Part shown: one piece after another, positions 1,391 through 20,920 of the stretch
Layout of the letters: each line of letters opens with the position of its first letter
Position numbering within the stretch: position 1 is the stretch's first letter
Program-made: the position numbers and the translations under genes
DNA from: a virus
Length of the DNA: 20,957 nt
Direction: 5' to 3' (one strand)
IMG/VR virus record: IMGVR_UViG_3300022752_005969
Location: 1-20,957 of that record
Notes under the pieces: generated by a model
Database searches by the model: none
What the model saw: the letters and a program-made list of their open reading frames with translations, nothing else
Told to the model about the DNA's origin: nothing

Positions 1391-2128
1391 TTATTTAATT
1401 ACTGTGGACCAAGGATATTTCTCACCATATTTTTCTTTGGATTTAGCATTGCCCTGAGTAAAAAATTCAGGTTTAACTGAACCCTCATTGCCATCTAATC
1501 TATAATTTAAAGTATACTTACCAGAACAACCATAATTCTTATGATTCATTTGATTTTTAAGAATCATATAAAATCTTCTATCTGCACCCCAACCAAAATC
1601 CCAAATATGCCCCACCATTCGAAGGAAGCTGTTAGTAAAACAATAAGAGCTTGAATCCACAAGATGTTCTGTACTTTTTACCCACACCGGCCATCTTCCC
1701 AAAGATTCACAGTTATCATTACATATAAATTCTTTATTTTTATCGTAAATTTTTCTTAAACTATGCACCCAATCATAATTGTATTGCTCAATTTCTTTTA
1801 CTAAACTTGTCACATGATTCGGTTCATACCAATTATCTTGATCTAAAAACATAATATAATCATGAGGACAAAGATGACTAAATGCTGCCATAACTCTGTG
1901 TCCATAATATCCACCGCCCCCAGTATTAAAAGGAATAGTTGATACTATTACATTTTTTTCTTGTATAGATGAAATGGAAATAGTTTTCTTTGCATCGTTT
2001 TCAAATTTTGTCCCATCAATAACTATAAGATGTTCGAGTTCAGAATAGTCTTGTTTTTGTACTGATTCAATTGCATCCTTCAATACGTCTGAACCAGTTG
2101 TCGGGGTAATAACTAATACTTTCTTCAT
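1391..2128 (-). CDS. GT2-type glycosyltransferase
   Basis: The 245-residue protein begins MKKVLVITPTTG and continues with an alternating beta-alpha pattern (LEHLIVIDGT at about 32-40) and FLDQDNW at 94-100. This is the nucleotide-sugar binding layout of GT-A family 2 enzymes, with D96-x-D98 as the metal-binding DxD. The C-terminal part has WDFGWGADRRFY. It should transfer a sugar from an NDP-sugar in the cytoplasm; acceptor and sugar cannot be read. The length is short but normal for a single GT-A domain. The start overlaps the upstream methyltransferase stop as ATGA, so it is the last protein gene of the left sugar operon. Confidence 0.8.
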   Translation of the reverse strand: MKKVLVITPTTGSDVLKDAIESVQKQDYSELEHLIVIDGTKFENDAKKTISISSIQEKNVIVSTIPFNTGGGGYYGHRVMAAFSHLCPHDYIMFLDQDNWYEPNHVTSLVKEIEQYNYDWVHSLRKIYDKNKEFICNDNCESLGRWPVWVKSTEHLVDSSSYCFTNSFLRMVGHIWDFGWGADRRFYMILKNQMNHKNYGCSGKYTLNYRLDGNEGSVKPEFFTQGNAKSKEKYGEKYPWSTVIK

Positions 2129-2772
2129 GAACTACTCACTGCTTCTTTCCATCTATTTTTTCCTTTACCAAAAACTATCATACTGTCATAAAAAGAAATA
2201 CTATCAGTACTATTTGTAAAATCAGTATTAGGTAATAATTTAGTATACGGTGCATTTAATTCATCAATTAAATCCTTGGCAAATTCAATTGTGCTATTTG
2301 GCAACTTGTAACCTCCGCCATGAGATCCCCAATAGGACGTGTGTATATCTTCAATTATATATAATCCATTTTTTGAGACATGCGGATATATTTCTTTAAA
2401 AGATTTAATAACGTGCGCTGATATATGTGACCCATCATCTATAACGATATCAAATTCGCCGAACTCTTTAATTAAGCTGGATAAAAATTCTTTATCAGAT
2501 TGATCACCTTTTCTAAATTGTATCATGGGAGTATTAAATGTTAATCCAATACTATTGGGTTGAGCATGATTATCTATACCAATAATTAATGCTTGGGGAC
2601 CGAAATAACGATGCCAAAGTTCCAACGACCCCCCATCCAGTACACCAATCTCCAATACGTTTATGGATTTGTTTCTATAGTCTTTAAATATTTTTTCATA
2701 TACGTTGAAGTACTGTGTCCATTTATAAATGGCTTTATGTTTATTAGTTAAAAATTCGTTCCAGAGATTCAT
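2125..2772 (-). CDS. Class I SAM-dependent methyltransferase
   Basis: The 215-residue protein has VLEIGVLDGGSLELW at about residues 39-53 (glycine-rich SAM-binding loop), IIGIDNH at about 63-69 (acidic end of strand 2) and FDIVIDDGSHISAH at about 107-120. The last resembles the metal-dependent methyltransferases related to macrocin O-methyltransferase, where an IDD-H region contributes ligands. ATG 2772 is chosen, because AGGGG lies seven bases before it; a TTG five codons earlier would overlap the upstream gene. It lies between an oxygenase and a glycosyltransferase, so O-methylation of a sugar is the natural guess. Substrate unknown. Confidence 0.75.
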   Translation of the reverse strand: MNLWNEFLTNKHKAIYKWTQYFNVYEKIFKDYRNKSINVLEIGVLDGGSLELWHRYFGPQALIIGIDNHAQPNSIGLTFNTPMIQFRKGDQSDKEFLSSLIKEFGEFDIVIDDGSHISAHVIKSFKEIYPHVSKNGLYIIEDIHTSYWGSHGGGYKLPNSTIEFAKDLIDELNAPYTKLLPNTDFTNSTDSISFYDSMIVFGKGKNRWKEAVSSS

Positions 2773-2776
2773 ACTG

Positions 2777-3556
2777 TTACCCCTCAAAGTATTTGGATAC
2801 AGATCTACTTTTGATTAATTCTAAAATTTCTTGATCATTTTGTTGATTTAAATAAGGTGCAAATAGTGCTCGGTCTCTATTCGAAATATCTTTTCTTGGT
2901 TCAGTTAAATAATAAATGTTTAAACTTTTTCTATAGACATTTTTCGGGGATTTAAGTTTTTCGGGTACACCATGCCATGAATTTTGTGTGGTGTCAAAAA
3001 GAACAGCTCGATTGAAAGTACAATCTATAGTTGCTTTGCATTCTTTAGGTAAATTTTTTTCATTGTCATGTGACCACAATTCTAGTTTGCCGCCATAATC
3101 AGATTTCCAATCTTTAGTCAAGTAAATTATTAAGTTAGCTCTACGTTCTAATTTAAGTTTTGGATGTATTGAATAATCCAAATGAATGTTTAATTTTCCT
3201 CCGCTGGGAGTAACATGCCAGCCACCACCATGCAGTCCGAAATCTGGAATTATATTGGGAACATCTATAATTTCTTCAATTATATTAATAAATTCCGTAC
3301 TATATAAAAAAGTAAAAACTTGATAAGTTTCTGGGGGAAATAAATTCCAATTAGTAGTTAACTTTTTATTTTCTAATGGATTGTTATAGATATTCCAAAT
3401 CTCATCTTTATTGAAATCTGGGAATTGCTCTGATAAAATATTCGCTAAATCCAAATTAAAAAAATTATCTACTATAACATGTTTAAATGGCTCGGCAGTG
3501 TTATACTTTAATTTCAAATTTGATATATCTAAATCATTTAATATTTTTTCTTTCAT
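2777..3556 (-). CDS. 2OG-Fe(II) oxygenase
   Basis: The 259-residue protein carries the facial triad of the 2-oxoglutarate dioxygenases: H125-L-D127 in NIHLDYS, the distal His195 in NSWHGVPEK, and Arg209 in YRKSLNIYYL to bind 2-oxoglutarate. The jelly-roll core runs from about 100 to 220. It would hydroxylate a substrate using O2, Fe(II) and 2-oxoglutarate. Such enzymes are common in aquatic T4-like phages; here the place within a sugar operon suggests a glycan or nucleotide-sugar substrate, though a protein or nucleic-acid target is possible. The start overlaps the end of the upstream gene by 23 bases, and four bases separate its stop from the ATG of the methyltransferase. Confidence 0.82.
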   Translation of the reverse strand: MKEKILNDLDISNLKLKYNTAEPFKHVIVDNFFNLDLANILSEQFPDFNKDEIWNIYNNPLENKKLTTNWNLFPPETYQVFTFLYSTEFINIIEEIIDVPNIIPDFGLHGGGWHVTPSGGKLNIHLDYSIHPKLKLERRANLIIYLTKDWKSDYGGKLELWSHDNEKNLPKECKATIDCTFNRAVLFDTTQNSWHGVPEKLKSPKNVYRKSLNIYYLTEPRKDISNRDRALFAPYLNQQNDQEILELIKSRSVSKYFEG

Positions 3557-4262
3557 ATTCTTTGACCAAAGTTACATGATGTTCACCATACATGGATTTA
3601 TAATTGGAATAACTTGCTGGAAATTTTTTAACTTTTAATGATTTATCTATGTAACAATACAATGAAAATAATCTTTCCACAATAAAACAAAAATTAGGAA
3701 TTGCAATTCCATTGTAGGGTTGTTTATCCTCAAACATACATTTCTTAATTTCCAAATCCTCTTTAGAAATTTCTATAACCTTATCTAAAAATAATATGTA
3801 GTTTTCCCAGAAAATAGAGTTGCCAATAAAATAATTACAAGTAGCGAAATCATCTGGTTTATATTCTATATCTTCTGCTTTCATATTTATACCCAACTTA
3901 GGAAAAAGCAAATTACAACAACTCAATATACCCGGACGCCAACGTTCACCCTGGATAAAAATATTTTTATAATTTAAGGCAATATCTAAAAAAGGATCAA
4001 TATGATAAACGTCATACCCGGGATTATTTAGTATCCAAGACTTAAATTCTTTAGAATCTAAATGAGTCTTTTCAAACCATCTCCAAGATAATAATCCCCA
4101 ATAAGCATCAGTATTTCTATGTTTCAAATACAATGATTTCCACAAAGGATATTCTCGCAATTCAGGATTCTTATTCTTTATATTATTAAAGGGTATAAAA
4201 TTTACATCTAATTTTTCTTTTTGAGATTCTTCATAGTAGGTTTGATATATGAATAAATTCAC
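3534..4262 (-). CDS. Unrecognised protein of sugar operon (glycosyltransferase-like?)
   Basis: The 242-residue protein starts at GTG 4262, overlapping the SDR stop as GTGA, with AAGGA nine bases upstream; no ATG is nearby. It begins with a short strand, MNLFIYQTYY, and contains YWGLLSWRWFEKT (54-66) and NPGYDVYHIDPF (80-91), patterns I associate with hypothetical proteins in bacterial and viral polysaccharide clusters. C115 and C116 are adjacent. No DxD, Rossmann or HExxH motif is clear. The GT-like start and the neighbours make a glycosyltransferase-related role possible, but I do not assign one. Confidence 0.6.
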   Translation of the reverse strand: MNLFIYQTYYEESQKEKLDVNFIPFNNIKNKNPELREYPLWKSLYLKHRNTDAYWGLLSWRWFEKTHLDSKEFKSWILNNPGYDVYHIDPFLDIALNYKNIFIQGERWRPGILSCCNLLFPKLGINMKAEDIEYKPDDFATCNYFIGNSIFWENYILFLDKVIEISKEDLEIKKCMFEDKQPYNGIAIPNFCFIVERLFSLYCYIDKSLKVKKFPASYSNYKSMYGEHHVTLVKEYERKNIK

Positions 4263-5086
4263 CTAAGAATATCCTTTATCATGTTTATATTGTCATACTG
4301 TGGAGTATATCCCAAACTTTTTAATTTATTAGTTTTCATCCACATGGATAATACTTGAACTTTTTTATGAAAATCTGGTTGTTCGATATAATTAAAGTTT
4401 GATTCACTTTTAAAAATATCTTTTGCAATATCTAGATAATCTTTGAAAAAATAGGGAACACCGTTCCCTATATTGTATATCGTATTTACGTCACCTTTTT
4501 CTATAATTAATTTAATGGCTTTAGCTACATCTGAAACATGTATAAAATCTCTATAAAACTTGCCACCCTCATATAAATTGATATCTTTATTTTGTTTTAT
4601 TTCGTTTACAAGATATTGCAAAGCATTCTTTTTAGACGAAGCTTTCATATCACCATAACCTGTTACATTTGCTAATCGTAATATTCTATATTTAAGATTA
4701 AAAGTTTCACAAAAACTTACTAATAAGTCTTCTGCTGCTTTTTTAGTAATAGAATAAAATCCTTTGGGATTACAAACACTTTCTTCAGTTGCAGGCATTT
4801 CGGTAAATCCATAGACAAACCAAGAACTAATAAAGTTGAAAACAATATCTTTATCCTTACACTGATCTAAAACTTTCATCATGGTAATAAGATTTGTTTC
4901 AATATCTATAAATGAATTAACTTTTATATTATAGTTAGTAACTGTAGAAATAAGATATACTATTTCCTTACAAGATTCATCTACTCTATAATCTATTTTT
5001 TCGTTTACAACACAAAATTCTTTATTTTGTTTCACAAATTCTGAACCAATAAATCCTGAACCACCGAACACCTGCAATTTCACCAT
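4259..5086 (-). CDS. Extended SDR: NAD-dependent sugar epimerase/dehydratase
   Basis: The 275-residue protein has the NAD-binding GGSGFIG at 8-14, Ser87/Ser88 in ISSWFVYG, and Y111-x3-K115 in YSITKK: the catalytic Ser, Tyr and Lys of extended short-chain dehydrogenases that act on NDP-sugars. The later RDFIHVSDVAKAI and YNIGNG motifs are also typical. It follows the E1-like dehydratase with a seven-base overlap. In the known 3,6-dideoxyhexose pathways the E1 product is reduced by an SDR (for example CDP-abequose or CDP-paratose synthase), so that role is a reasonable inference; a 4-epimerase is the alternative. Confidence 0.85.
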   Translation of the reverse strand: MVKLQVFGGSGFIGSEFVKQNKEFCVVNEKIDYRVDESCKEIVYLISTVTNYNIKVNSFIDIETNLITMMKVLDQCKDKDIVFNFISSWFVYGFTEMPATEESVCNPKGFYSITKKAAEDLLVSFCETFNLKYRILRLANVTGYGDMKASSKKNALQYLVNEIKQNKDINLYEGGKFYRDFIHVSDVAKAIKLIIEKGDVNTIYNIGNGVPYFFKDYLDIAKDIFKSESNFNYIEQPDFHKKVQVLSMWMKTNKLKSLGYTPQYDNINMIKDILR

Positions 5087-6357
5087 AATTTCAAAACCTT
5101 TTCTATATAATTAAATATTTTATCGTTATAAAAAGGAGGGCAACCAAGGAAAAATATATGGGATAATGCTTTATTTGATAAAGGATATTTAGTATAATCT
5201 CCTAGATGTTTAAATCCTGGATGAAGTAAAATATTTCCAGCAAAATATGGTCTAGTTTGAATTCTGTTGGTTTCTAAAAATTGTACTATAAATTCTTTTT
5301 GTTCTTGGGATTCACAGATAATGGGTACTCCAAACCAAGATGGATCTGCTTTATCTAACACTTTAGCAGTGGACACACCTAGATATTTAATCATAAGATT
5401 TTCTATAATTTTTTTATGTAATCTTCTTTTAGTTTCGATCTCATCAATTTTTTCCATCTGTGCTATACCTATAGCACCTTGTAAATCTAGGGGTTTTAGA
5501 TTGTATCCAGCATATCGAAAAATATACTTATGATCAATTATACCATCATAGTTTTCTAACCAATTACTGAATCTTTTACCGCAAGTTCCACATGGTAACA
5601 AATTATTAGCACCCACACAATAACAATCTCTGCCCCACCAGGACATTGCCCTTGCAGTTTTGATAAATTCTTCATCATTGGAGGAAATCATTCCTCCTTC
5701 GCCGGTGGATATATGATGAGCAGGATAAAATGAGCAACTCCAAGCATAATATAATTCATTTAAGTACTTATCCCCCCATTTGGTTCCTAAAGAATCGCAA
5801 TTGTCTCCTATAAGTAAGATATTATGCTTATTACATAAATCTATCAAAACGTCCATATCAGGTGGATTCGATAATACGGGCGAGACAAATATCGCTTTAG
5901 TTTTATCTGTTATAACATTTTCTATTAATCGTACGTCAAAATTAAGTGTCTCAAATTCAATATCTACAAAAATAGGTTTTAAGTTTGTTTGAACAATGGG
6001 TGCAATAGTAGTAGCAAATCCTACCGGAGAAACTATAATCTCATCGCCGTCCTTCCACTTAAAATATTCTTTTAAACTAGCCAACATTATTAGGTTAGCT
6101 GAGCTACCTGAATTGACCATATGGGAATAGCCTGCATTAAATTTTTTAGCAAACTGATTTTGAAATTCTAATACCTTTTCGCCAGATGCAATCCAACTTC
6201 CCGTCAAAAAAGCATCTAATGCTAATTCTATTTCTCGATTATCCCAGTATTGCCCTGAGTACAAAACATAGGTTTTTTCAGGATCAAAATTATCATAATT
6301 TTGAATATATTTTGGATTAGCTATTGCGCTAATATTTTTAATTAAATCATTTATCAT
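5080..6357 (-). CDS. rfbH: E1/RfbH-type NDP-4-keto-6-deoxyhexose 3-dehydratase
   Basis: The 425-residue protein has the DegT/DnrJ/EryC1 aminotransferase fold, but the PLP lysine is replaced: FYPAHHISTGEGG at 210-222 has His214 where aminotransferases have Lys. This exchange marks the PMP-dependent dehydratase E1 (AscC, RfbH) and ColD. Four cysteines match the E1 [2Fe-2S] pattern that I recall as C-X57-C-X1-C-X7-C: here C187, C245, C247 and C256 (X8 at the last step), with C259 also near. These point to C3 deoxygenation of an NDP-4-keto-6-deoxyhexose. E1 needs an electron donor (E3); none is visible here. A 40-codon gene overlaps its start as ATGA, and AAGG lies ahead of the ATG. Confidence 0.9.
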   Translation of the reverse strand: MINDLIKNISAIANPKYIQNYDNFDPEKTYVLYSGQYWDNREIELALDAFLTGSWIASGEKVLEFQNQFAKKFNAGYSHMVNSGSSANLIMLASLKEYFKWKDGDEIIVSPVGFATTIAPIVQTNLKPIFVDIEFETLNFDVRLIENVITDKTKAIFVSPVLSNPPDMDVLIDLCNKHNILLIGDNCDSLGTKWGDKYLNELYYAWSCSFYPAHHISTGEGGMISSNDEEFIKTARAMSWWGRDCYCVGANNLLPCGTCGKRFSNWLENYDGIIDHKYIFRYAGYNLKPLDLQGAIGIAQMEKIDEIETKRRLHKKIIENLMIKYLGVSTAKVLDKADPSWFGVPIICESQEQKEFIVQFLETNRIQTRPYFAGNILLHPGFKHLGDYTKYPLSNKALSHIFFLGCPPFYNDKIFNYIEKVLKLW

Positions 6358-10462: not shown

Positions 10463-11215
10463 TCACGATATGTTAGCGCCATATTTAATTAAATCACCCT
10501 TGAATACATGTAACCCAATATGATTAAGATTAATTGCGGGATGTATAAAAATCTTTCCATTCTTCTTTCTCCATAGATTACAAAAATACCAATCCTCTGT
10601 TTGTAGTACTCCCTCCTCATCTATTTCAGTTTTAAAGTATTCAGTATACCAAGTATTATATTTACCGAAATTAGATGCTCTTGCTTTAGGCAAGTCTGGT
10701 TCAAGTTTTTCGAACACTTCTCTTTTTATTAGCATAAAACCTGTTCCAGCATGTTTAACCTGAAGCAAACCCTTTGCATTCGTTTTTTGTTCTGCTCCAT
10801 CATCAATAAAATTAAATACAAAAGACGAACCATAATTTTCTAATTCTGAATGATCAGATGCAGTGAAAGCATTTTGTCTGATTCTTTTCCAATCTATAAT
10901 CTTTTTAGGATAAACCCCACAAACAATATCCTCATTTGCCTTGAATAGTTTGAGAATAGCATCGCTGGGAAAGTGAATATCTGCATCTATAAACATTAGG
11001 TGGGTACAATCAGTTTTTAGAAAACTATCTGCAATATAATTTCTACCTCTGGTAATTAAACTTTCGTTCGCAACAAAGTTCCATTCCAATTGCACCCCTG
11101 CATTTTTTAATGGAAGAATACTACTCAAAAGACCACTGGTGTATCCATGATAACATAGTCCACCATACATGGGTGTGCCAATCTGTATCTTGGCTTTATT
11201 ATTTAAATTCTTCAT
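10463..11215 (-). CDS. GT-A glycosyltransferase, phage type
   Basis: The 250-residue protein opens with IQIGTPMYGGLC and continues ESLITRGRNYIADSFL and MFIDADIHFP (74-83), in which D77-x-D79 is a DxD motif. The GT-A fold and the late HAGTGFMLIKREVFEKL and TEDWYFCNLWRKKNGKIFIHP blocks are familiar from glycosyltransferases of large phages, where such genes are thought to act on DNA bases, virion proteins or surface glycans. It is the gene next to the sliding clamp, and its stop is eight bases before the clamp start, so the sugar operon may read directly into the replication operon. It overlaps the DUF3310-like gene by 17 bases. Confidence 0.85.
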   Translation of the reverse strand: MKNLNNKAKIQIGTPMYGGLCYHGYTSGLLSSILPLKNAGVQLEWNFVANESLITRGRNYIADSFLKTDCTHLMFIDADIHFPSDAILKLFKANEDIVCGVYPKKIIDWKRIRQNAFTASDHSELENYGSSFVFNFIDDGAEQKTNAKGLLQVKHAGTGFMLIKREVFEKLEPDLPKARASNFGKYNTWYTEYFKTEIDEEGVLQTEDWYFCNLWRKKNGKIFIHPAINLNHIGLHVFKGDLIKYGANIS

Positions 11216-11495
11216 TTTCTAAGTCATGTACATAAAGCATTATTAAAGCATAGTGTAACACCTTTAGTATGTCCTTCCTATTTCTTCCTTCTTTCTTTCC
11301 GTATCTTTGGGCATACTTAATTATATTACCTACCGTATGTCCAATACCATGTCCATTTGCAATAATAAACTCAGTAGTTTGTATTTTTCCTTGGGCATAG
11401 TGTTGTGTGTATGTTGTGTCAATATAATTCTTTAACTGAATTAATAAATTTTCCTCATCATACTTGTATATGGGTTTACTTGGTATACAATTCAT
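11199..11495 (-). CDS. DUF3310-like protein
   Basis: The 98-residue protein contains HGIGHTVGNIIKYAQRYGKK (49-68), followed by RKDILKVLHYALIMLYVH. This is the pattern of DUF3310 proteins of phages: a helix with GNxIKYxxRxGKKxG and a second helix of a Leu/Tyr-rich type. Their function is unknown, although they often occur near nucleotide-metabolism genes; the assignment rests on recall of the motif. It overlaps both neighbours (20 bases with the upstream fusion gene, 17 with the downstream glycosyltransferase), so it is translated with them. Its presence in a sugar operon is unexpected. Confidence 0.72.
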   Translation of the reverse strand: MNCIPSKPIYKYDEENLLIQLKNYIDTTYTQHYAQGKIQTTEFIIANGHGIGHTVGNIIKYAQRYGKKEGRNRKDILKVLHYALIMLYVHDLENEEFK

Positions 11496-12501
11496 TCAAA
11501 TTATCTCCATCACGTTTTACATTATAACTTAGTGCACTAGGATATCTATTGGTGGGGTGGTAATCATTTATTAATATTCTCCTGGCATTATGCAAATCCA
11601 TAATCAATTTACAATTCTTACTAAAACCAAGTTGTTGTAGCATCATCGTAGTTACTTCCTGCGCAGATTGTGGTCTTGCTGTAGTGAAAATTACTTGGCA
11701 TCCCCTATCATATTCTGCTTTAATAATTTTGTAATTATTTTCCAATACCTCATACTCACCATCGTATGGTCTATGCATAGATTTAACTAATGTGCCATCT
11801 ATATCGCAAAAAATTGTAGGTTTATTATTATAAAAATTCCAATCTTCAAGTGTCCCCACATCCACAAAATCTCGAATATCAATATTTCTAAATACTTTAT
11901 TATGTTTTTGTATCATAATACTAATAATATGAGACACAAATAATTCTTTATTAGAAGAATCTTTTAACTCATTGAATGCGGTAATATATTCTATGGATGA
12001 ACTAAACTTATAAGCACCTATACAAAAATGATTACTAACTATTTCTTTTTCAACTATGTCGTAAATTATGTCCTGCGAATTTACAGTAACAAAAGACTTA
12101 GATGACAATTTTCTTAAATTATCATGATATTTTATATTAGTAGTATATACTACATTACCTGGTTCATAAACAACATTAAAAAAATTATCACAATCTTTTA
12201 CAAGAAATTCAATATCATTATCTTTCTCAGACAAAATGTTATAAACTGTTTCTGCCGGACCACTAGTTGGTTTATCCAAAACTACAATATCTACATCACC
12301 AAGTTCTCTATTCAATACTTTTATGGCATCATATTGTACAGCATGCTGCTGTAAAATACCTATTGATATTTTATACTTTCCAAAAAAAGGTTCCAGTGCC
12401 TTTTTAATCATCAATTCGCCTGCATAGTTATATAGTAAATACTTGGGTCTTGTGCCCGGAAAGCGTGTTGATAGACCAGCAGCAGGTACTATAATTTCCA
12501 T
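11476..12501 (-). CDS. Nucleotidyltransferase-HAD phosphatase fusion
   Basis: Residues 1 to about 220 form a sugar-nucleotidyltransferase domain: AAGLSTRFPGTRPK (7-20) is the nucleotide-binding signature, D103-x-D105 lies in VKDCDNFF, and DVGTLEDW (214-221) closes the domain. From about 228 a HAD phosphatase domain follows: FCDIDGTLV (D233, D235), then TTARPQ (273-278), and INDY near 313. The protein should activate a phosphorylated precursor with an NTP and dephosphorylate a related one. It follows the kinase-like gene with a 13-base overlap. The sugar or alcohol is unknown. Confidence 0.87.
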   Translation of the reverse strand: MEIIVPAAGLSTRFPGTRPKYLLYNYAGELMIKKALEPFFGKYKISIGILQQHAVQYDAIKVLNRELGDVDIVVLDKPTSGPAETVYNILSEKDNDIEFLVKDCDNFFNVVYEPGNVVYTTNIKYHDNLRKLSSKSFVTVNSQDIIYDIVEKEIVSNHFCIGAYKFSSSIEYITAFNELKDSSNKELFVSHIISIMIQKHNKVFRNIDIRDFVDVGTLEDWNFYNNKPTIFCDIDGTLVKSMHRPYDGEYEVLENNYKIIKAEYDRGCQVIFTTARPQSAQEVTTMMLQQLGFSKNCKLIMDLHNARRILINDYHPTNRYPSALSYNVKRDGDNLNELYTK

Positions 12502-13232
12502 AATTTTTCTATTTGATTAAGTAAAAATTGTTTTGTTTTTTGATCTTTTTGTGCATGTTTTAAAATTCTAATAAGCATAATAATAGTCAAAGTATTATTA
12601 ATTTCGCCACAGTCTTTTTCTATAAAATTTTTTAAAATACTTAATTTTGCATCAAGATTAATATTACAGTTTCGTATAAACCATTTACAGGTTAAATCTT
12701 GATTTAATTTTGCTAGATCAAAGTGCCAAGAATCATATTCTATAGTTGCAGGATCTATTATTATAAATCCTTTTTCCTTATTGAACAATATATTTTCTAA
12801 AGTAAAATCACCAATATACTCAGATTGGTTAAATAATTTGGGAAGGCGATTTATCAATTCATCATTTGTAAAACTAAAAATAGAATCAACCCAACCTAAT
12901 TTATTAAAGTAAATATTAGTATAATCTTTAACAACTTCTTCTGTTTGCTTTAGCTTTTTTATATTTTCTACTATAAATTTTGCCAAAAATTTGGGATTAT
13001 TTTTTAATAGATAGTTTTTAATATCTAAACCTGGTATATATTCAATATCAAGTATATCATTATCATAATTTAGTATCTTTACCACTGAGAAATCAAGATG
13101 ATGTAATCTACATAATCTTTCATAATTTCGTACTACATTTCCTTGTTTACGAACAAAATACTCATTGTTTATTTGCATTAAGTAAATTTTACTACCGGAA
13201 TATCCTTTAAATTCCTTTACAATTTTTTCCAT
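12489..13232 (-). CDS. Aminoglycoside/choline-kinase-fold phosphotransferase
   Basis: The 247-residue protein has an N-lobe (FVRKQ, where Lys29 could be the ATP-binding lysine), a hinge around IEYIPG, and the catalytic region IGDFTLENILF (140-150) with D142 and N147, followed by IIIDPA (D160). This is the layout of the APH/ChoK kinase family. The usual His of HGD is replaced by Ile140, which occurs in some family members. The gene lies directly ahead of a nucleotidyltransferase-phosphatase gene and shares the TAATG overlap with the gene before it, so it may phosphorylate the precursor that the fusion enzyme activates. The substrate is unknown. Confidence 0.78.
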   Translation of the reverse strand: MEKIVKEFKGYSGSKIYLMQINNEYFVRKQGNVVRNYERLCRLHHLDFSVVKILNYDNDILDIEYIPGLDIKNYLLKNNPKFLAKFIVENIKKLKQTEEVVKDYTNIYFNKLGWVDSIFSFTNDELINRLPKLFNQSEYIGDFTLENILFNKEKGFIIIDPATIEYDSWHFDLAKLNQDLTCKWFIRNCNINLDAKLSILKNFIEKDCGEINNTLTIIMLIRILKHAQKDQKTKQFLLNQIEKLWKL

Positions 13233-13936
13233 TAATCTACATGTAATTGTCCATTGGGTGCAACGTTGCCTTCCAGTCCCAACGTATCAATTTCTTGAAC
13301 ATATTTTTTATCTACAAATTTATACAATGCGTGCTCAAAATCTATAGATGGATTAATAACTGTTCTTATCACACTATCCAAAATAGAATGAGTATACTTT
13401 AATAAAGAGGGACATAGTGAAAATAATCTGGTAATGTATAGTGCTGGTATTTCTTTATTATCTTTCCAAGTATCATGCCGCTTAAATACATATTTTCCAA
13501 AATAATTAAACTTAGATATATCAAAATTATCGTTAAGTTTATATCTTCCAGATATTTTAAATATTCTATTTGAAGATGATACTAGTTTCATGGCATTTGG
13601 ATATGATAACATCAATTCTATCATTTTCATAAGTAAATAGGCATCACCTGCAGATTTCAATCCTGCATCATTAAATTGCCTGGCATTTTGATCACTGCTA
13701 ATATTTGCCACGAAATCACATTTTTCAGATAACAGTGCATAAATTTTATCATCAAGAGGCCTTGAAGAATTATCAGCAATTAAAATTAAACTATTGGAGC
13801 ATCTATCTCTAATAGAATCAATTGTTTCATAGGTTTGATTTAATCTTTCCTGGGGATTATATATTCCATGGTTGGTATTAATACAACTAGTTATAAGAAA
13901 TAAATTATTTTTGGGGGGACCAATTAGCATAATCAT
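13232..13936 (-). CDS. Glycosyltransferase-like protein, tentative
   Basis: The 234-residue protein begins with a short strand and FLITSCIN, then YNPQERLNQTYETIDSIRDRC, and has LILIADNSS at 50-58, which looks like the second strand of a GT-A fold. IFKISGRYKLND at 125-136 is a motif I have seen in hypothetical proteins of polysaccharide clusters. A DxD is not clear. Two in-frame ATGs are possible (13936 and 13930); GAG before the second may favour it. It overlaps the upstream gene by up to 32 bases and the kinase gene by one (TAATG). Confidence 0.62.
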   Translation of the reverse strand: MIMLIGPPKNNLFLITSCINTNHGIYNPQERLNQTYETIDSIRDRCSNSLILIADNSSRPLDDKIYALLSEKCDFVANISSDQNARQFNDAGLKSAGDAYLLMKMIELMLSYPNAMKLVSSSNRIFKISGRYKLNDNFDISKFNYFGKYVFKRHDTWKDNKEIPALYITRLFSLCPSLLKYTHSILDSVIRTVINPSIDFEHALYKFVDKKYVQEIDTLGLEGNVAPNGQLHVD

Positions 13937-14618
13937 CTCGTATCAAAGAATGCCAGGTTCCATTGTGTTCACCTGGCGGAAACGGATTACATACATCAAC
14001 ATACACAAGATTTTCACCTACTAAATTATAATGTTTTAGATTGGCTTGCAACATATCCTCTCCAATCATTATAACACCTTCATCATAATATTTTTGTATG
14101 TTTAAAAACGTCCTACAGTACTTAGTTATGATATCAGATGAACTGAAAGCAAATTGATCGTTACAAAAATCTCTCTCAATAACCATTCTACAGTTAGGAA
14201 CATAGAGTTTACTGTTATCTAAACTAAAATCAGGTGTTGCATTCAACGCATAATCGAATCTCAATCGCACTACCCAATCATATTTAAAATTATTAGCTGA
14301 TTCATACTTTTCTCTTATCTTTGATGCCTTGTAGATAGAATTGAATGCAGACATAGTAAAATATGCTGGAAATTTAGAATTGGGTATTCTGGGATATTTG
14401 GTTTCAAAACTAAGATCAGGCAAAGGATCATCTACTATACTATTCTTTGGTTTATATAAACTTTCTAATTTAGCATAATCTGTTTTGTCTTTTTTCCAAG
14501 TATGATAAAATACATCTACATCATATTTACTTAGTAAATTTTTATTGATGTATTCGAAGCCTTTTTCAAAAGATCTGGGTTGCCCAGATATACATGCTGC
14601 AATTCTAATATTTGGCAT
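13905..14618 (-). CDS. Glycosyltransferase-like protein with GQPR motif
   Basis: From ATG 14618 the product has 237 residues. It opens with IRIAACISGQPRSFEKGFEY, then DVFYHTW, and later YDWVVRLRFDYAL. The ISGQPR...HTW...RxRxD set occurs in putative GT-A enzymes of bacterial and viral surface-glycan clusters, where the RxRxD block takes the position of the metal-binding acidic motif. Function is inferred from this pattern and from neighbours. The TTG directly before would extend it by one residue; AAAGG about eight bases before the ATG supports the choice made. It overlaps the upstream gene by 14 bases. Confidence 0.68.
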   Translation of the reverse strand: MPNIRIAACISGQPRSFEKGFEYINKNLLSKYDVDVFYHTWKKDKTDYAKLESLYKPKNSIVDDPLPDLSFETKYPRIPNSKFPAYFTMSAFNSIYKASKIREKYESANNFKYDWVVRLRFDYALNATPDFSLDNSKLYVPNCRMVIERDFCNDQFAFSSSDIITKYCRTFLNIQKYYDEGVIMIGEDMLQANLKHYNLVGENLVYVDVCNPFPPGEHNGTWHSLIRDDYANWSPQK

Positions 14619-15423
14619 CAATTTTTACCTTTAAATCTGGTACTCTATCATACTGATGGACAATATAAAAAAGATCACCGGTTGAAGTATATACCTCGCC
14701 TTCTTTATAAACAGGAATATTTTCTAATAGATGCGGTTTAAAGATTTCTAACTTGGTTGGATCGCCGGTTGTCCCCAATTGACACGCCCAACCATCTTCT
14801 GATTTGGCTTGCTTAGTAATCGTTGACCAAGGTTCAGTATGCATCATAATATTATAGGTTGCTTGATCTACAATAGGAATTGGTCTATTAATAGATGCCA
14901 AAAATAGATGAAGCATTAAATCTTTTATATATTTATGTTCACCTGCCAATGTTCCTACATTGAAAATTTCCTTTTCGTAAAATTCGTTGTGAATATATTT
15001 ACCAAAAGCACTCATTAGATTATTATTGCCCCAAGATTCGTGTAAGTATTGTATACTTTCTGATGCACATACAATTTTTTTATTATCTAAATTTTCTTCT
15101 AACCAATCAATAGGATTCTGTTGAAATATAACATCTTTAACATCTGTAGATATCACATAACGATATTCATTATTTTTGAGATAATGATACATATGAATGA
15201 ATCTTTCTACGTGAACAGGGGTATTACTTTTATAATCTAATGTCTTGTTAACAGGCACAACAGTAATGCCATGTTCTTCCAGAGTTTTCACTGTTTCCAC
15301 AGAACATTCCATTACAACCAAAACAACATCACCAGAAAATGATGTGTTCTTTATAGATTTTGCCCAATTTTTTAGTTGATTCCATTCATATCTGGTTGAA
15401 GTTCCAATCAACAAATCTTTCAT
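14605..15423 (-). CDS. GT-A-type glycosyltransferase with DxxD motif
   Basis: The 272-residue protein starts LLIGTSTRYEWNQLKNWAKS, with FSGDVVLVVMECS at about 29-41, and contains YVISTDVKDVIFQQNP at 89-104. A strand ending in TDVKDV(I/V)FQxxP is known from family members with a nucleotide-diphospho-sugar transferase fold, and D94 and D97 would take the role of the DxD. FNVGTLAGEHKYI and VDQATYN further on also fit, since many GT-A enzymes have an N-x-G and a DQ pair in the acceptor half. Starts and stops overlap the neighbours (ATGA with the GT10 gene). Sugar and acceptor unknown. Confidence 0.75.
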   Translation of the reverse strand: MKDLLIGTSTRYEWNQLKNWAKSIKNTSFSGDVVLVVMECSVETVKTLEEHGITVVPVNKTLDYKSNTPVHVERFIHMYHYLKNNEYRYVISTDVKDVIFQQNPIDWLEENLDNKKIVCASESIQYLHESWGNNNLMSAFGKYIHNEFYEKEIFNVGTLAGEHKYIKDLMLHLFLASINRPIPIVDQATYNIMMHTEPWSTITKQAKSEDGWACQLGTTGDPTKLEIFKPHLLENIPVYKEGEVYTSTGDLFYIVHQYDRVPDLKVKIDAKY

Positions 15424-16301
15424 CTAGCATCCCTTTTTGCAACTACTATGGCATCAAACCAATTTAAAAAATTATTAATGATAATGCAATCGTTAGGTAA
15501 ATTGTACATAAATTTTGGAGAATTTACTATATTCGTATATAGTGTATCATTATTATCTATTTCTATAATTTTCTCTATTAGAGCTTCTTCAGATGGGAAA
15601 TCAAAGTAATTAATATAGGATAGAGGATTAAAATCTTTAACGATTGTCGGTGATCCCCAGTAAATAGGAATAGTATTTCCATAAAAACCATGTAGAATTT
15701 TTTCTGTTACATACCCCGGATACGAAGAGTTTTCAAAACATAAACTAAACTTATGTTTAGAAAAGTAATCTATTTTAGAAGAAACATCTGGTAAATTAAT
15801 ATTAGTATTATTTAAAAGTAATCCTGCGCTATTTACCTTTTTGTATTCGGTGTTTAATTTTCTAAAAAAATTGTTTCTTATTGGGTTTCCACCATTACGA
15901 TGAACAAAGGCACAAAAGTCTGTTTTACTCCGTACATCTGTTTTGTGAAGATGGCACAAATAATCAAATGGTCGATTGGTTACCTTGTGTACAGTTTCAA
16001 TCGCCCACATATCCAGCACATAAAGAGGTAATCTATAATGCCATGGATTAAAATTATGATCAAAACTTATAGCATAATGGCAATCGTAGTTTTCAGGTCT
16101 TCTATTTTCCCCTGTATAGAAAATTTTGGTAATATCATTTTTAGATATTAAATTATTTTGTGTACCAAAATTTTCATCACAAAAGATTAAAAACTCAGCA
16201 TCATTACTTATTTCAATATCATAACGTAATTCTAGAGCATCTACAAAAAATTGTATACAAGAATCCCAAGTATCAGTAAACTGCAACTTAAGTTTTCTCA
16301 T
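15420..16301 (-). CDS. GT10 fucosyltransferase-like protein
   Basis: The 293-residue protein has the C-terminal GT10 donor-binding block FSLCFENSSYPGYVTEKI at 185-202, continuing HGFYGNTIPIYWGSP, which is the best conserved part of alpha-1,3/1,4-fucosyltransferases. FYTGENRRPENY (61-72) and CAFVHRN (130-136) match other GT10 patterns. Such enzymes transfer fucose from GDP-fucose; a different deoxy sugar would be possible here, as the genome encodes a deoxy-sugar enzyme. No GDP-fucose synthesis gene is in the window. Both ends overlap neighbours as ATGA. No membrane tail is evident. Confidence 0.87.
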   Translation of the reverse strand: MRKLKLQFTDTWDSCIQFFVDALELRYDIEISNDAEFLIFCDENFGTQNNLISKNDITKIFYTGENRRPENYDCHYAISFDHNFNPWHYRLPLYVLDMWAIETVHKVTNRPFDYLCHLHKTDVRSKTDFCAFVHRNGGNPIRNNFFRKLNTEYKKVNSAGLLLNNTNINLPDVSSKIDYFSKHKFSLCFENSSYPGYVTEKILHGFYGNTIPIYWGSPTIVKDFNPLSYINYFDFPSEEALIEKIIEIDNNDTLYTNIVNSPKFMYNLPNDCIIINNFLNWFDAIVVAKRDAR

Positions 16302-16828
16302 TCCACTACTCTAGCTACCATAATATCTCCGGGTATTTCACCATCGATATAAGTCACTCTATACTTATAATTAATCTCTATTAGAGCATCCACTACATCA
16401 TCTTTACTAAGAAAATCCCATTCGCCCGTACCGAATAATCGCATATCATCTATAATTATGACATGATTTTTTACTGAATGTTTTCCTATTTCTTTAAGTT
16501 CGTGGACCAAAGGAGAACCCCCATATTTACCTCCAGGCAAAGGTCCACTAGCATGGGCATCTAACCAAAAAGTTGCTTGTCCTTGTACACTCTTTAGTAT
16601 AAGTTGCAGGCAATCTACAGAATCACCTTCCCAGATTTTTATTTCTTCTTGCCCCGAAAATCTTTTTTTACAGTTTTCAAATAAATCCTTATGTAATTCT
16701 ACACTATGAATTTTTTTGAATCCGAAATCTTTTGCTACTTGAACAGTATCACCATGATACGTTCCCGTTTCAATAAAGGTATCGCCCGCGGCGTATTCCT
16801 GTAGATAAGCAGTTGTTAACTTTCCCAT
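16298..16828 (-). CDS. Methyltransferase-like Rossmann protein
   Basis: The 176-residue protein has TFIETGTYHGDTV at about 17-29 in place of the glycine-rich SAM loop, then IHSVELHKDLFENCKKRF (strand 2, acidic end), KIWEGDS, ATFWLDAHASG and VIIIDDMRLFG. The order and spacing fit a class I SAM-fold protein. The first loop is a less common variant (ETGTYxG) but is known in phage and polysaccharide clusters. The first gene of the right sugar operon in transcription order, it starts after a hairpin at 16847-16867; GAGG lies four bases ahead of its ATG. Confidence 0.7.
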   Translation of the reverse strand: MGKLTTAYLQEYAAGDTFIETGTYHGDTVQVAKDFGFKKIHSVELHKDLFENCKKRFSGQEEIKIWEGDSVDCLQLILKSVQGQATFWLDAHASGPLPGGKYGGSPLVHELKEIGKHSVKNHVIIIDDMRLFGTGEWDFLSKDDVVDALIEINYKYRVTYIDGEIPGDIMVARVVE

Positions 16829-16885: not shown

Positions 16886-18064
16886 TTAGAACGGAAGTTC
16901 CTCATCCCCGGATGTAGTTTCTCTTTCTAAAGACGCCCCCTCTTTATCCTCTTTGGGCAAATCAATTTTATTGTAAAGATCCATAAATGCTGCTTTGGTA
17001 TCCGAATCAAAACGATTGATACATAAGTTGATTGCCTTTGTTCTATCATCGAAAACAGAATAAGCTTTTACAATATGAACTAGACGTCTTGTGGAAATTA
17101 ATTCGTCAATGGCACCTTCTGTATAAGTTTTGCGAATAATTTCCGCCCATCCCACCAATTTATCTGCAAAATCCTCATCCAATTTATTAAGCATAGTCAT
17201 ATTATTGGTAATAATTTTGCGTTCAATGGCAACGCTGGGATAATCCTGTTCCACGGTAATGGGAAAACGCTCAAGAAATGCTTCATCCAAAATTTGTGCT
17301 GCAATAAATTTGCCATCTTCCGTGCCTCTACCTTTAGTATTGGCAGTTGCAATAATATTAAAACCATTAGCAGGATAAACTACTTCTCCTGTTTTCTTAA
17401 TAAAGAAAGGTTTCCCTTCTAGAATACCTTGAATACACATTAGTTTGTTACTACCGCGGTCAATTTCATCAATTAAAAGAATTGCACCTCGTCGCATGGC
17501 AGTAATCACCGGACCTTCTCTAAAAGATACATTTCCATCAATCAGAGTATTGCCGCCCACAAGGTCATCCTCATCTGTTTCAATACTAACATTGACTCTA
17601 ATACATTCGCGATTCAACTTAGCACAAACTTGTTCAACCATAGTAGTTTTACCATTACCACTTAGACCAGTAATAAACAAAGGATAGAATGCTTTGGATT
17701 TAATAATAGATTCCAAATCTTTAAAAAAGCCAAATGGAACATACGTTTCATCTTTAGATGGTACCAGATTATCAATATCTTGAATTAATTTTTTCTGACG
17801 AATTGATACAACTTGTGCTTGCATAGCAGTTAGATGCTCAGGCTCAGTTTCTAATGATTTTTGCATACAAATACTATCTGCCGGTGTGGTAAGATTAATA
17901 AGGCCTCTATTAATACGATATTGTTCACCATTTATTAACCAATTGGGCACTGGTTCATTCTTGGATTTATAATGATCAATAATAGTTTTACGAGATGTCT
18001 GTTTACCAAAAATATTAAACAGATCATTAATAATATCGCGCTTTTGAATTTCTGAAAGTTTCAT
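16886..18064 (-). CDS. cobS: CobS-like MoxR-type AAA+ ATPase
   Basis: From ATG 18064 the protein has 392 residues. It has Walker A GLSGNGKT (133-140), DEDDLVGG (164-171), Walker B ILLIDEID (195-202), sensor-1 IIATANT (237-243) and ERFPI (265-269) with an arginine. This is the CobS/MoxR AAA+ type; T4-like cyanophages carry relatives called cobS. The cobaltochelatase role is doubtful without other cobalamin genes. The next gene upstream encodes a VWA protein, the usual partner of MoxR and CobS ATPases. GAGGAG ahead of the ATG beats an in-frame TTG six codons earlier. A perfect sigma-70 promoter sits just upstream. Confidence 0.87.
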   Translation of the reverse strand: MKLSEIQKRDIINDLFNIFGKQTSRKTIIDHYKSKNEPVPNWLINGEQYRINRGLINLTTPADSICMQKSLETEPEHLTAMQAQVVSIRQKKLIQDIDNLVPSKDETYVPFGFFKDLESIIKSKAFYPLFITGLSGNGKTTMVEQVCAKLNRECIRVNVSIETDEDDLVGGNTLIDGNVSFREGPVITAMRRGAILLIDEIDRGSNKLMCIQGILEGKPFFIKKTGEVVYPANGFNIIATANTKGRGTEDGKFIAAQILDEAFLERFPITVEQDYPSVAIERKIITNNMTMLNKLDEDFADKLVGWAEIIRKTYTEGAIDELISTRRLVHIVKAYSVFDDRTKAINLCINRFDSDTKAAFMDLYNKIDLPKEDKEGASLERETTSGDEELPF

Positions 18065-18092
18065 TTTAAAGTAGCTCCTCAATTATTTCATA

Positions 18093-18121
18093 ATTATATA
18101 TTACATTGAACACGATGTCAA
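18093..18121 (-). promoter_or_regulatory. Perfect sigma-70 promoter for the CobS-like gene
   Basis: On the minus strand TTGACA (18121-18116) and TATAAT (18098-18093) are both exact consensus and are 17 bases apart. The -35 overlaps the stop codon of the VWA gene. Transcription should begin about seven bases further on and leave a leader of roughly 20 bases before the ribosome binding site. Such a site implies host RNA polymerase and early expression. Confidence 0.88.
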
Positions 18122-20238
18122 GCAATTAATTGAATAAATTTATTTAGAAAAACTCTATTCAAAATCTTATTTTTTTGATTTTTAATAAATGCTTTCATAA
18201 CTTCCTTCTTTTGATTGGACCCAACAACTAAAGTCTCATCTCCTATTTCTAAATCTTTTTCCTGTACGACAAAGTATTCATCAAACCCTGTATTTTTAAC
18301 ACTGTAAAATTTATTCTTTTTAAGATATTCTGATACTTGCTCTGCAGTGACAGGATTGCCATATTGGTTTGCTACATTTATTGCAGTATTTTTAGGACTT
18401 CTGGAACAAATAAAATAACCAATAAGATTACCATTACTGTTTACTTTAAGTAATCTAAGTAATGCATTAGTTACCATTTCAGTAGGTTTAGCTACTACGG
18501 AAACAGTACTTCTTTTATCTTTAAGAATAAGATTAAAATAATTGGAGGCACAATAACTTTTAAAACTTTGTGCCTTGCCTTCACTATTTAAGAATTCGGG
18601 GCAATCATTACCATCACCGTCGGTAAGAAAGATTGTACTAATAACGTCAATTTTACGTTCTTTCTTATAATCTGAAACTAAATAATTTGCCAAAACAATT
18701 GCTTCATTCAAAGGAGTGCCACCTAGTGATAGGTTTCTGGGTAAACATTGGTGTCGCAAAGACCACCAACTTCTTTTTTCCAAATCCCGTTCAAATGATT
18801 TACCTATTTGTAACAATCTAATTTGCGCATTTCGATATTGTGCGTTACTCATGGTAGATGATAATAAATTCATTAAATTTATATTAGTTCTAAGAACAAG
18901 ATCACCTACATTGATTGGTCGAATAAAACTAGATTTTATTCTTTGCTCGTTATCCCCAGAGGCACATACATCTGAAAATGCATATACTTCAAAGGGTATA
19001 TTTACTTTTCTACAAAAATCCGCCAATATGATAATTTGCTCAATAGTATTGGTAATATTTTCCGACATAGAACCAGACCAATCTAAGAACATAATCATGG
19101 CATGATTCTTACCATTGGGAATTTTAGTAACTCGTTTAAAGAGGTCATCTTTAAGTTTATATGCCCAAATCTTTTCTAAGTTTATTTCGCCGGTTTTAGA
19201 AATGCTAGCTCTGGCATATTGTGAAGCATTACGTCGTAATTCAAATTCTTTTACCAAATAACCAATAAATTTTAAATTTTTATTTCTATAATCTGATAAT
19301 AGTTTACCTGCAAGAAATATAGAGGCTTCCTCATCATCTTCTATGCCATATTCTTTTAATGTTGAAGAATAGTTGTCATACTTGGAGAAATCTAAGTTAT
19401 ATATTTTGGAATAATGAATAATATGATTTTTATAGTTTGCCTCGGGTAAATTGACATAAACATACGGATGAAAAGAATTATCCAGAAGTGTTTTTTCTTT
19501 TTCTCTAAATGAGACATCTGTATCCGATTGAGGCTCCTTTACGAAACTACCCCCTCGAATTTCTTTAGAATTAGTAGATTCTTCATTTTCTTCTAAAGTT
19601 TCATAATCATCATCGCCAGCATCCTGCCAACCCTCTTCTTCACCATACTCTAACTCATCCAATGAAGTAGTTGGATTATCTTTTTGATATTGGTATAATT
19701 CTGATGCCAGAGTATATACATCTTCCCAAGATTTCAAATTATTCATTCTTTCTACAAAATCTTCTTCCTCATTCTTAAAAGGCACATTCGTGAAAGATCC
19801 CAATTTAAAGTGCAAATTCAAACGATCAATTAAAGATAAACTGCTAAGATTTTTATTCTTGACACCAAAGAAATCTTGATCAAATAATTCTTGATACCCC
19901 CTATACATAGGAGATCGCAATCCCGGATATCTGGACTTAATTAATTTTTCAATGCGAGCATCTTCTACTACATTAAGAAAAGATTTAAATCCCTTTCCCT
20001 TTTCCTCAATAGCATCATGCCAACCATCGGGCGGTGTTTCCCATGCATGCCCCACTTCATGCCCCACCAAAAGATCGTATAGATCAGAGCTCATGTTTTT
20101 CCAGACAGGAAGTCCGAGTACTCGATTCTTCGGATCAAAATAAGCAGTGGGGATTTTTCGATGTTCTACAGTGATATTTTCCTGCGCTAATAGTTTAGCT
20201 AGGACTGATTTTTGATTGGAAATATTTTGAATAGACAT
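18118..20238 (-). CDS. Large VWA protein with N-terminal HExxH metallopeptidase-like domain
   Basis: The 706-residue protein begins with a region containing GHEVGHAWE (HEVGH at 60-64) and NVVEDARIE (about 89-97), a zinc-peptidase-like arrangement in which the later acidic pair could supply the third ligand. A long acidic linker (about 195-230) follows. From about 380 a VWA domain appears: MIMFLDWSGSMSEN with D386-x-S388-x-S390, GGTPL (T508) and FLTDGDGND (D540), the MIDAS metal site. CobT-like proteins combine acidic linkers and VWA domains. With the CobS-like neighbour it forms a probable ATPase-VWA pair, possibly acting on phage or host proteins. Ribosome binding site AAGGAG and a perfect promoter precede it. 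Confidence 0.85.
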   Translation of the reverse strand: MSIQNISNQKSVLAKLLAQENITVEHRKIPTAYFDPKNRVLGLPVWKNMSSDLYDLLVGHEVGHAWETPPDGWHDAIEEKGKGFKSFLNVVEDARIEKLIKSRYPGLRSPMYRGYQELFDQDFFGVKNKNLSSLSLIDRLNLHFKLGSFTNVPFKNEEEDFVERMNNLKSWEDVYTLASELYQYQKDNPTTSLDELEYGEEEGWQDAGDDDYETLEENEESTNSKEIRGGSFVKEPQSDTDVSFREKEKTLLDNSFHPYVYVNLPEANYKNHIIHYSKIYNLDFSKYDNYSSTLKEYGIEDDEEASIFLAGKLLSDYRNKNLKFIGYLVKEFELRRNASQYARASISKTGEINLEKIWAYKLKDDLFKRVTKIPNGKNHAMIMFLDWSGSMSENITNTIEQIIILADFCRKVNIPFEVYAFSDVCASGDNEQRIKSSFIRPINVGDLVLRTNINLMNLLSSTMSNAQYRNAQIRLLQIGKSFERDLEKRSWWSLRHQCLPRNLSLGGTPLNEAIVLANYLVSDYKKERKIDVISTIFLTDGDGNDCPEFLNSEGKAQSFKSYCASNYFNLILKDKRSTVSVVAKPTEMVTNALLRLLKVNSNGNLIGYFICSRSPKNTAINVANQYGNPVTAEQVSEYLKKNKFYSVKNTGFDEYFVVQEKDLEIGDETLVVGSNQKKEVMKAFIKNQKNKILNRVFLNKFIQLIA

Positions 20239-20344: not shown

Positions 20345-20920
20345 TTAGCTTAAACCTATATTTGCCATTTCTTTGTATGTGTCTACAATATAGCGTTGTC
20401 TAATTTCTTTTTTTAATTTTTCTCGCACATTATTTAATCTTTTATTTGCCAGTGACCATTTTAAAGGTGATACTTTACTCTTAAATGTTTTGCCTAACAT
20501 ATGATCATATTCATGTAAAAATATTCTAGCAGTTAAACCTGTCAAATTTGTTCTTATGTATTCACCAAGTACATTTTGATATTCAACTTCAATACTTAAA
20601 GGTCTTTCAATTTTCAAAAAAATACCAGGAAAAGATAAACATCCTTCTTCCAATGTAGTCTTTCCTGATGATGAAATTATTTTTGGATTAAAAATATCTA
20701 TTCTAAGAAGATCTAGTCCCATCGTAAAGAATTGAGTATTAATGCCTACTTGATTTGCTGAAAGACCAATTCCACCCAATTCTTTCATTCTTTCAAACAT
20801 TAAATTTGCAAACATCTCAGTAGTATCTTTGTTTTCCTCAAAATTATACAATTCCGGTTCACAATTCAAAATAGATGAATCGGGTGGAACTAGTTTTAAT
20901 TGACTTTTTCTAATTAACAT
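20345..20920 (-). CDS. def: Peptide deformylase
   Basis: The 191-residue protein has the three deformylase motifs: GIGLSANQVG (50-59), EGCLS (92-96) with the metal ligand Cys94, and HEYDH (136-140) with His136, His140 and catalytic Glu137. The enzyme removes formyl from the N-terminal fMet of new proteins, using Fe(II) or another metal. Deformylases occur in many T4-like aquatic phages and are usually trimmed; this one has a normal length plus a basic C-terminal helix. No Shine-Dalgarno sequence precedes ATG 20920. The stop of the gene before it lies four bases ahead, so translation may be coupled. Confidence 0.95.
   Translation of the reverse strand: MLIRKSQLKLVPPDSSILNCEPELYNFEENKDTTEMFANLMFERMKELGGIGLSANQVGINTQFFTMGLDLLRIDIFNPKIISSSGKTTLEEGCLSFPGIFLKIERPLSIEVEYQNVLGEYIRTNLTGLTARIFLHEYDHMLGKTFKSKVSPLKWSLANKRLNNVREKLKKEIRQRYIVDTYKEMANIGLS

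Follow-up and report, generated by a model that had tools for sequence, protein, structure and literature searches.

Several protein machines are known in which an AAA+ ATPase operates with a partner carrying a VWA domain. One example is midasin (MDN1/Rea1), a single large fused protein rather than a two-gene pair, for which, to our knowledge, a protease domain has never been described. Another example is the NorQ-NorD pair, a MoxR-type ring with a VWA partner, which inserts iron into nitric oxide reductase by twisting (PMC13036017). A third example is CobS-CobT (solved entries 9uka-9ukh), the AAA+/VWA pair of the B12 cobaltochelatase. As to the phages, cobS is listed in the cyanophage core (Sullivan et al., 2010; PMC3037559), and a MoxR ATPase has been described whose vWA partner carries a metallopeptidase domain at its N-terminus, with a proposed role in virion assembly (Iyer et al., 2021; PMC7824862). 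Here we analyze a gene pair of this type in a 20,957-base IMG/VR virus record (IMGVR_UViG_3300022752_005969, positions 1 to 20,957, hereafter the window), which originates from a marine T4-like phage and is probably a fragment of a larger phage genome. The pair is a further member of a common T4-like gene pair that has already been catalogued, and we give about even chances to its acting, during the DNA-metabolism programme of the phage, as a motor-coupled metalloprotease or remodeller instead of as a cobalt chelatase.

The two genes lie side by side on the minus strand, as do all of their features that follow. The CobS/MoxR-type ATPase (392 amino acids, 16886-18064) was listed as an open reading frame from a TTG at 18082, but the ATG at 18064 is the better start, because it is preceded by a GAGGAG Shine-Dalgarno sequence, with which the TTG overlaps. 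The protein matches phrog_249 (E 4.9e-115; annotated as ‘porphyrin biosynthesis,’ i.e., phage CobS) and the Pfam families AAA_5 (E 1.8e-19) and CbbQ_C, and its best PDB sequence matches are the midasin AAA modules, CobS (E 5e-23 for the solved protein) and CbbQ/NorQ. Walker A (GLSGNGKT, residues 133-140, 17645-17668) is kept in 101 aligned homologues, and so are D199 and E200 of Walker B (ILLIDE, residues 195-200, 17465-17482), the LERF arginine finger (R266), and R326/R327. Family match, Walker motifs and arginine finger thus all place the ATPase with the phage cobS family, phrog_249/T4-GC150. Its partner, a 706-residue zincin-VWA protein (18118-20238), the cyanophage ‘peptidase’ T4-GC146, matches phrog_459 (also ‘peptidase,’ E 2.1e-190), and it belongs to this family both by sequence match and by its position next to cobS. 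Pfam and NCBIfam scans of this protein returned no family match, a PDB sequence search with the protein or its profile found no true homologue, and with PADLOC neither member of the pair showed a convincing match to a defence system.

The N-terminal domain of the 706-residue protein (residues 1-190, 19669-20238) is predicted to be zincin-like. In the AlphaFold model of residues 1-194 alone (predicted local distance difference test score, pLDDT, 90.4; predicted template modelling score 0.86), the HEVGH motif (residues 60-64, 20047-20061) lies on a helix formed by residues 51-67, and the NVVEDARIE motif (residues 89-97, 19948-19974), with E92, on a helix formed by residues 82-103. Fold matches of the domain are almost exclusively to HExxH metallopeptidases (Z scores of 8.1 for BepA, 7.0 for a putative Zn peptidase, 6.9 for jannalysin, 6.8 for BlaR1, 6.7 for abylysin, and 6.4 for ArdC), with Foldseek giving jannalysin a probability of 1.00, yet at an E-value of 0.17. 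The predicted domain thus has the gluzincin arrangement of HExxH on a helix within a zincin-like fold, with matches that are modest (Z 6-8). An HExxH string alone could be due to chance, as shuffles produce it at rates of 1.1% (whole protein) and 0.26% (first 200 residues). However, in 78 aligned diverse homologues H60, E61, H64, T68, N89, E92, D93, and R95 are all invariant. The gathering scan behind most of these homologues had HEVGHA among its seeds; in a control scan seeded solely with the C-terminal half of the protein, each of the 64 complete homologues (64/64) still had HExxH, the sole miss being a contig missing its start. The invariance in both sets rules out a chance origin. The predicted metal site is therefore a real feature of sequence and fold, with E92 the likeliest third metal ligand, along with H60 and H64. 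Like the gluzincins (BepA/M48, minigluzincins, ArdC, BlaR1), residues 1-148 present the fold with an HExxH helix followed by a glutamate-bearing helix; unlike them, the window protein has a VWA domain fused on and an AAA+ motor as a partner, and no sequence family assigns it: a scan of 69 N-terminal domains provided only weak and scattered zincin hints and no family assignment.

An earlier note on this DNA, made from the sequence alone, had recognized the ATPase and VWA reading frames and the HEVGH, VEDARIE and MIDAS (metal-ion-dependent adhesion site) motifs, all of which are present as it described them, and its pairing of a MoxR/CobS-type ATPase with a VWA-MIDAS partner is borne out by the family, PDB and fold matches. 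It had also proposed structure prediction of the 706-residue protein as a check on the metal site, and HEVGH falls inside the predicted zincin-like domain. Its view of the pair as the strongest candidate for an undescribed phage system has to be abandoned: both families are catalogued (phrog_249/phrog_459, T4-GC150/T4-GC146), and the window pair corresponds to the published definition of the phage MoxR AAA+/vWA-metallopeptidase pair (PMC7824862).

The C-terminal VWA domain (residues 376-706, 18121-19113) carries a complete MIDAS, made up of the DxSxS motif (DWSGSM, residues 386-391, 19066-19083; D386, S388, S390, and M391 invariant), the threonine motif (GGTP, 18712-18723; T508 and P509 invariant) and the aspartate motif (LTDG, 18616-18627; D540 and G541 invariant), as judged from the same 78 sequences. 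In the model of the full protein (pLDDT 80.5), its best fold matches, by VIA-align Z, are the MDN1 MIDAS domain (15.2) and NorD in the NorQD complex (14.8), both being VWA domains that operate with AAA+ rings, with the integrin and von Willebrand factor domains at about 10.5-11. Midasin thus provides the best match to both window proteins, to the ATPase by PDB sequence and to the VWA domain by fold, and NorD, which functions in iron insertion, is among the best fold matches. We propose that the ATPase and the VWA protein would make up a two-part, ATP-driven protein-remodelling machine. By analogy with NorQ and CobS, the CobS-like protein would form a ring, onto which the VWA domain, judging from its fold, its MIDAS and the NorQD complex, may dock as NorD and CobT do. 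The N-terminal domain, on a floppy acidic linker (residues 195-238, 19525-19656; modelled at low confidence, with pLDDT <50 over residues 195-231), would be a gluzincin-type metallopeptidase with a zinc held by H60, H64 and, most likely, E92. Powered by ATP, the VWA domain would move and thereby pull a client to the N-terminal domain, which would clip it, and the setting of the genes among those for the clamp, the clamp loader, gp46/gp47, and nucleotide metabolism would point to the DNA-replication phase. While the motifs, the fold, the conservation, and the linkage of the two genes are well supported, the metal, proteolysis and the client are what we infer.

The pair is widespread. A tblastn search matched the VWA protein in 463 phage records, nearly all from T4-like cyanophages, and in 448 records the match spans 80% or more of the protein; identities to homologues are between 27 and 64%, with all the motifs in common. 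In the cyanophage records, the T4-GC146 ‘peptidase’ and T4-GC150 ‘cobS’ genes are found beside gp46/gp47 and gp45/gp44, and the Pelagibacter (SAR11) phage HTVC008M also carries both genes. Both in the cyanophage core pair and in HTVC008M the two genes, their order and strand, and their neighbours (DUF3310, gp45, gp44) are as in the window, the only difference found being a glycosyltransferase cassette that separates cobS from gp45 in the window lineage. Of the 102 non-redundant loci whose downstream sequence reaches 3 kb, 83 encode the ATPase within 3 kb of the VWA gene. When 11 records were searched for the ATPase, all six of those of at least 87 kb carried both genes, even when these were not adjacent. 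The 19 loci with no ATPase within 3 kb include a freshwater clade (L035, L045, L055, L060, L063, L064), in which the VWA gene is downstream of apparent nrdA/nrdB genes and no ATPase gene was found nearby; one record of this clade, of at least 87 kb, does encode the ATPase.

For 54 of the 62 loci spanning 11 kb or more, genes for replication, recombination or nucleotide metabolism lie in the vicinity, and the gp23 major capsid gene is near none (0/62). Outside of the T4-like phages, relatives adjoin dnaE, ligase or primase genes, several of such replicons being mutually related and thus not all independent. These data bear on the proposal that the pair is a virion-assembly chaperone-protease, folding and clipping the structural proteins of the phage, as put forward for the group 2.2 jumbo phages on the basis of the MoxR-vWA pair that serves tail assembly in Acidianus two-tailed virus (PMC7824862). 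The jumbo phage pair, as described, is like the window pair, a MoxR protein with a vWA protein possessing an N-terminal metallopeptidase, and a protease-like domain would fit a function in processing. However, the likeness is one of description only, and the context here is that of DNA metabolism: the genes reside in a DNA-metabolism module, with the pair retained beside gp45/gp44 in HTVC008M and the cyanophages; Melnitz, a T4-like phage too and the one with the nearest relative of gp44, has the equivalent syntenic region without the pair; and relatives are also found on plasmid records, one of which showed no gene for a phage structural protein over the part that was examined. A function in virion assembly therefore appears unlikely. 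We found in the literature no experimental test of the role of the pair during infection, and the portions of text searched from the studies of expression timing (PMC5082946, PMC12753301) and of the S-CREM1 virion proteome (PMC9964418) do not state the class of either gene.

As to the cellular CobS-CobT, the relationship is real but remote. HExxH is found at a similar N-terminal place in CobT-like proteins encoded by mobile elements, including Rhizobium phages, SSU5, Roseobacter phage CRP-810, Vibrio phage ICP2, and plasmids of Aeromonas, Geobacillus and Sinorhizobium, while the CobT-like proteins of Pseudomonas phage nickie, an Acinetobacter plasmid and a Caballeronia plasmid are without it. 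On the Aeromonas media plasmid (L013, 2080-6414), the AAA+ ATPase and the HExxH-VWA protein form a trio with a third partner, a DUF3150 protein, beside a toprim-domain gene. The window-type N-terminal domain aligns with the mobile CobT-like proteins with an hhalign probability of 98.9 (E 1e-17), and these, in turn, align with cellular CobT with a probability of 95 (E 2e-8). These intermediates were needed to establish the link, because direct comparison of the window-type domain with cellular CobT is weak (E 0.11 with a narrow and 0.002 with a wider CobT set). None of the alphaproteobacterial CobT proteins that were fetched possesses HExxH; one such string, flagged in a 951-amino-acid open frame, was rejected as being in a wrong frame, with surroundings not like CobT. 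The solved CobT (9uka) is not in the fold lists of the N-terminal domain, an absence that does not argue for a different fold. The statement of the earlier note that the phage protein ‘adds’ HEVGH is thus either the wrong way round or unsupported, since the site is widespread in the mobile members and missing from the sampled cellular CobT. Its other statement, that no further cobalamin gene is present, stands for the families scanned in the window, and does not extend to the whole phage.

The pair shares descent with CobST, although it probably does not act as a cobalt chelatase. The published view (PMC8651126) is that viral CobS and CobT join the host CobN to provide more cobalamin for nucleotide synthesis, and cobS/cobT are also handled as auxiliary metabolic genes elsewhere (PMC7029224). 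The match of the ATPase to the solved CobS and the homology that the mobile intermediates establish between the N-terminal domain and CobT both agree with this view. However, the VWA protein matches neither of the CobT families, PF06213 or PF11775, scoring below all CobT models, the ATPase scores 81 bits versus a cut-off of 558.55 for the cobaltochelatase CobS equivalog, TIGR01650, CobN is not in the window, and the zincin site is in the window partner and not in the sampled cellular CobT. In addition, the pair is found in HTVC008M, and SAR11, its host, is not known as a cobalamin maker. SAR11 also lacks MetH (PMC12478193). Finally, in a survey of 58 alphaproteobacterial genomes (loci L129, L133-L140, L214-L249), some of them incomplete assemblies, CobT (PF06213) was found in 41 and CobN (PF02514) in 22, with no CobN match in 20 of the 41 encoding CobT; likewise, the Caulobacter vibrioides control possesses CobT without CobN. 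Such pairs, therefore, need not work with CobN, and this suggests that they can persist without it and have other clients. Overall, we find a role as cobaltochelatase subunits rather improbable. One possible, although doubtful, scenario is that the HExxH form is ancestral. Phages and plasmids would then have retained an AAA+-driven metalloprotease for their DNA-replication programme, and CobT of the B12 cobaltochelatase would be its inactive descendant. If so, the label ‘cobS/cobT’ in phages would have been misapplied to a protein-remodelling protease linked to replication.

A number of observations weigh against a replication-linked metalloprotease. The Z scores of 6-8 for the N-terminal fold are modest and the Foldseek E-values are all above 0.1, and so the argument for the zincin fold rests on the consistency of the match list and on the invariant residues. 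The replication context in the T4-like phages is a single inherited synteny rather than many independent cases. Some mobile relatives (L014, L123, L124) lack HExxH, and therefore not all such pairs depend on catalysis. One alternative is a metal-insertion chaperone, with a NorQD-like opening of a metalloenzyme, for example the beta subunit of the phage ribonucleotide reductase, and an N-terminal domain that would hold or deliver the metal without cutting. The NorD-like VWA domain, along with iron insertion by NorQD through twisting (PMC13036017), would be consistent with such a function, as would the proximity of apparent nrdA/nrdB to the VWA gene in the freshwater clade. The glutaredoxin gene nrdC is also found just upstream in two cyanophages. 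However, ribonucleotide reductase is encoded by many T4-like phages that do not possess the pair, and E61 is invariant, while mere metal holding needs no catalytic HExxH glutamate. The predicted N-terminal fold, too, favours cutting over metal insertion, and we regard a metal-insertion chaperone as having a low probability.

The pair is part of the core of hundreds of T4-like cyanophages and is present in SAR11 phages, and yet the two genes are taken for auxiliary metabolic genes of vitamin B12, a reading that rests on distant resemblance. The published readings, as a ‘cobS’ of cobalamin metabolism versus a metallopeptidase of virion assembly, are in conflict, and the presence of an invariant zincin site suggests that the name ‘peptidase’ is more than an error. 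The protease-like site, the phage of a SAR11 host and the cellular CobT without CobN now make the B12 annotation testable, and if it is wrong, counts of the viral contributions to cobalamin metabolism would change.

The window also encodes gp45, gp44, gp62, regA, and hsp20, with the nearest relatives of gp44 in the Methylophilales phage Melnitz (62.5%), followed by Stenotrophomonas phage DLP6, cyanophages and Pelagibacter phages. The gene order peptide deformylase-VWA-CobS-DUF3310-gp45-gp44-gp62-regA can be traced through the relatives. The peptide deformylase gene (phrog_2890, 20345-20920, minus strand) is just upstream of the VWA gene, and it also lies on the upstream side of this gene in three related loci (L002, L003, L016). 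Two blocks of glycan-type genes are present, at 10463-16828 and at 1391-6357 (minus strand), with genes for a family-10 fucosyltransferase (15420-16301) and for DegT-like, epimerase-like, methyltransferase-like, HAD, and glycosyltransferase-like proteins. The first of these blocks sits between cobS and DUF3310-gp45, in an order conserved in L002 and L003, and is not present in the cyanophages examined or in HTVC008M. A small DUF4337 membrane protein (E 3e-30) is encoded on the opposite strand (152-667, plus), close to a tRNA-Met gene at 1312-1386.

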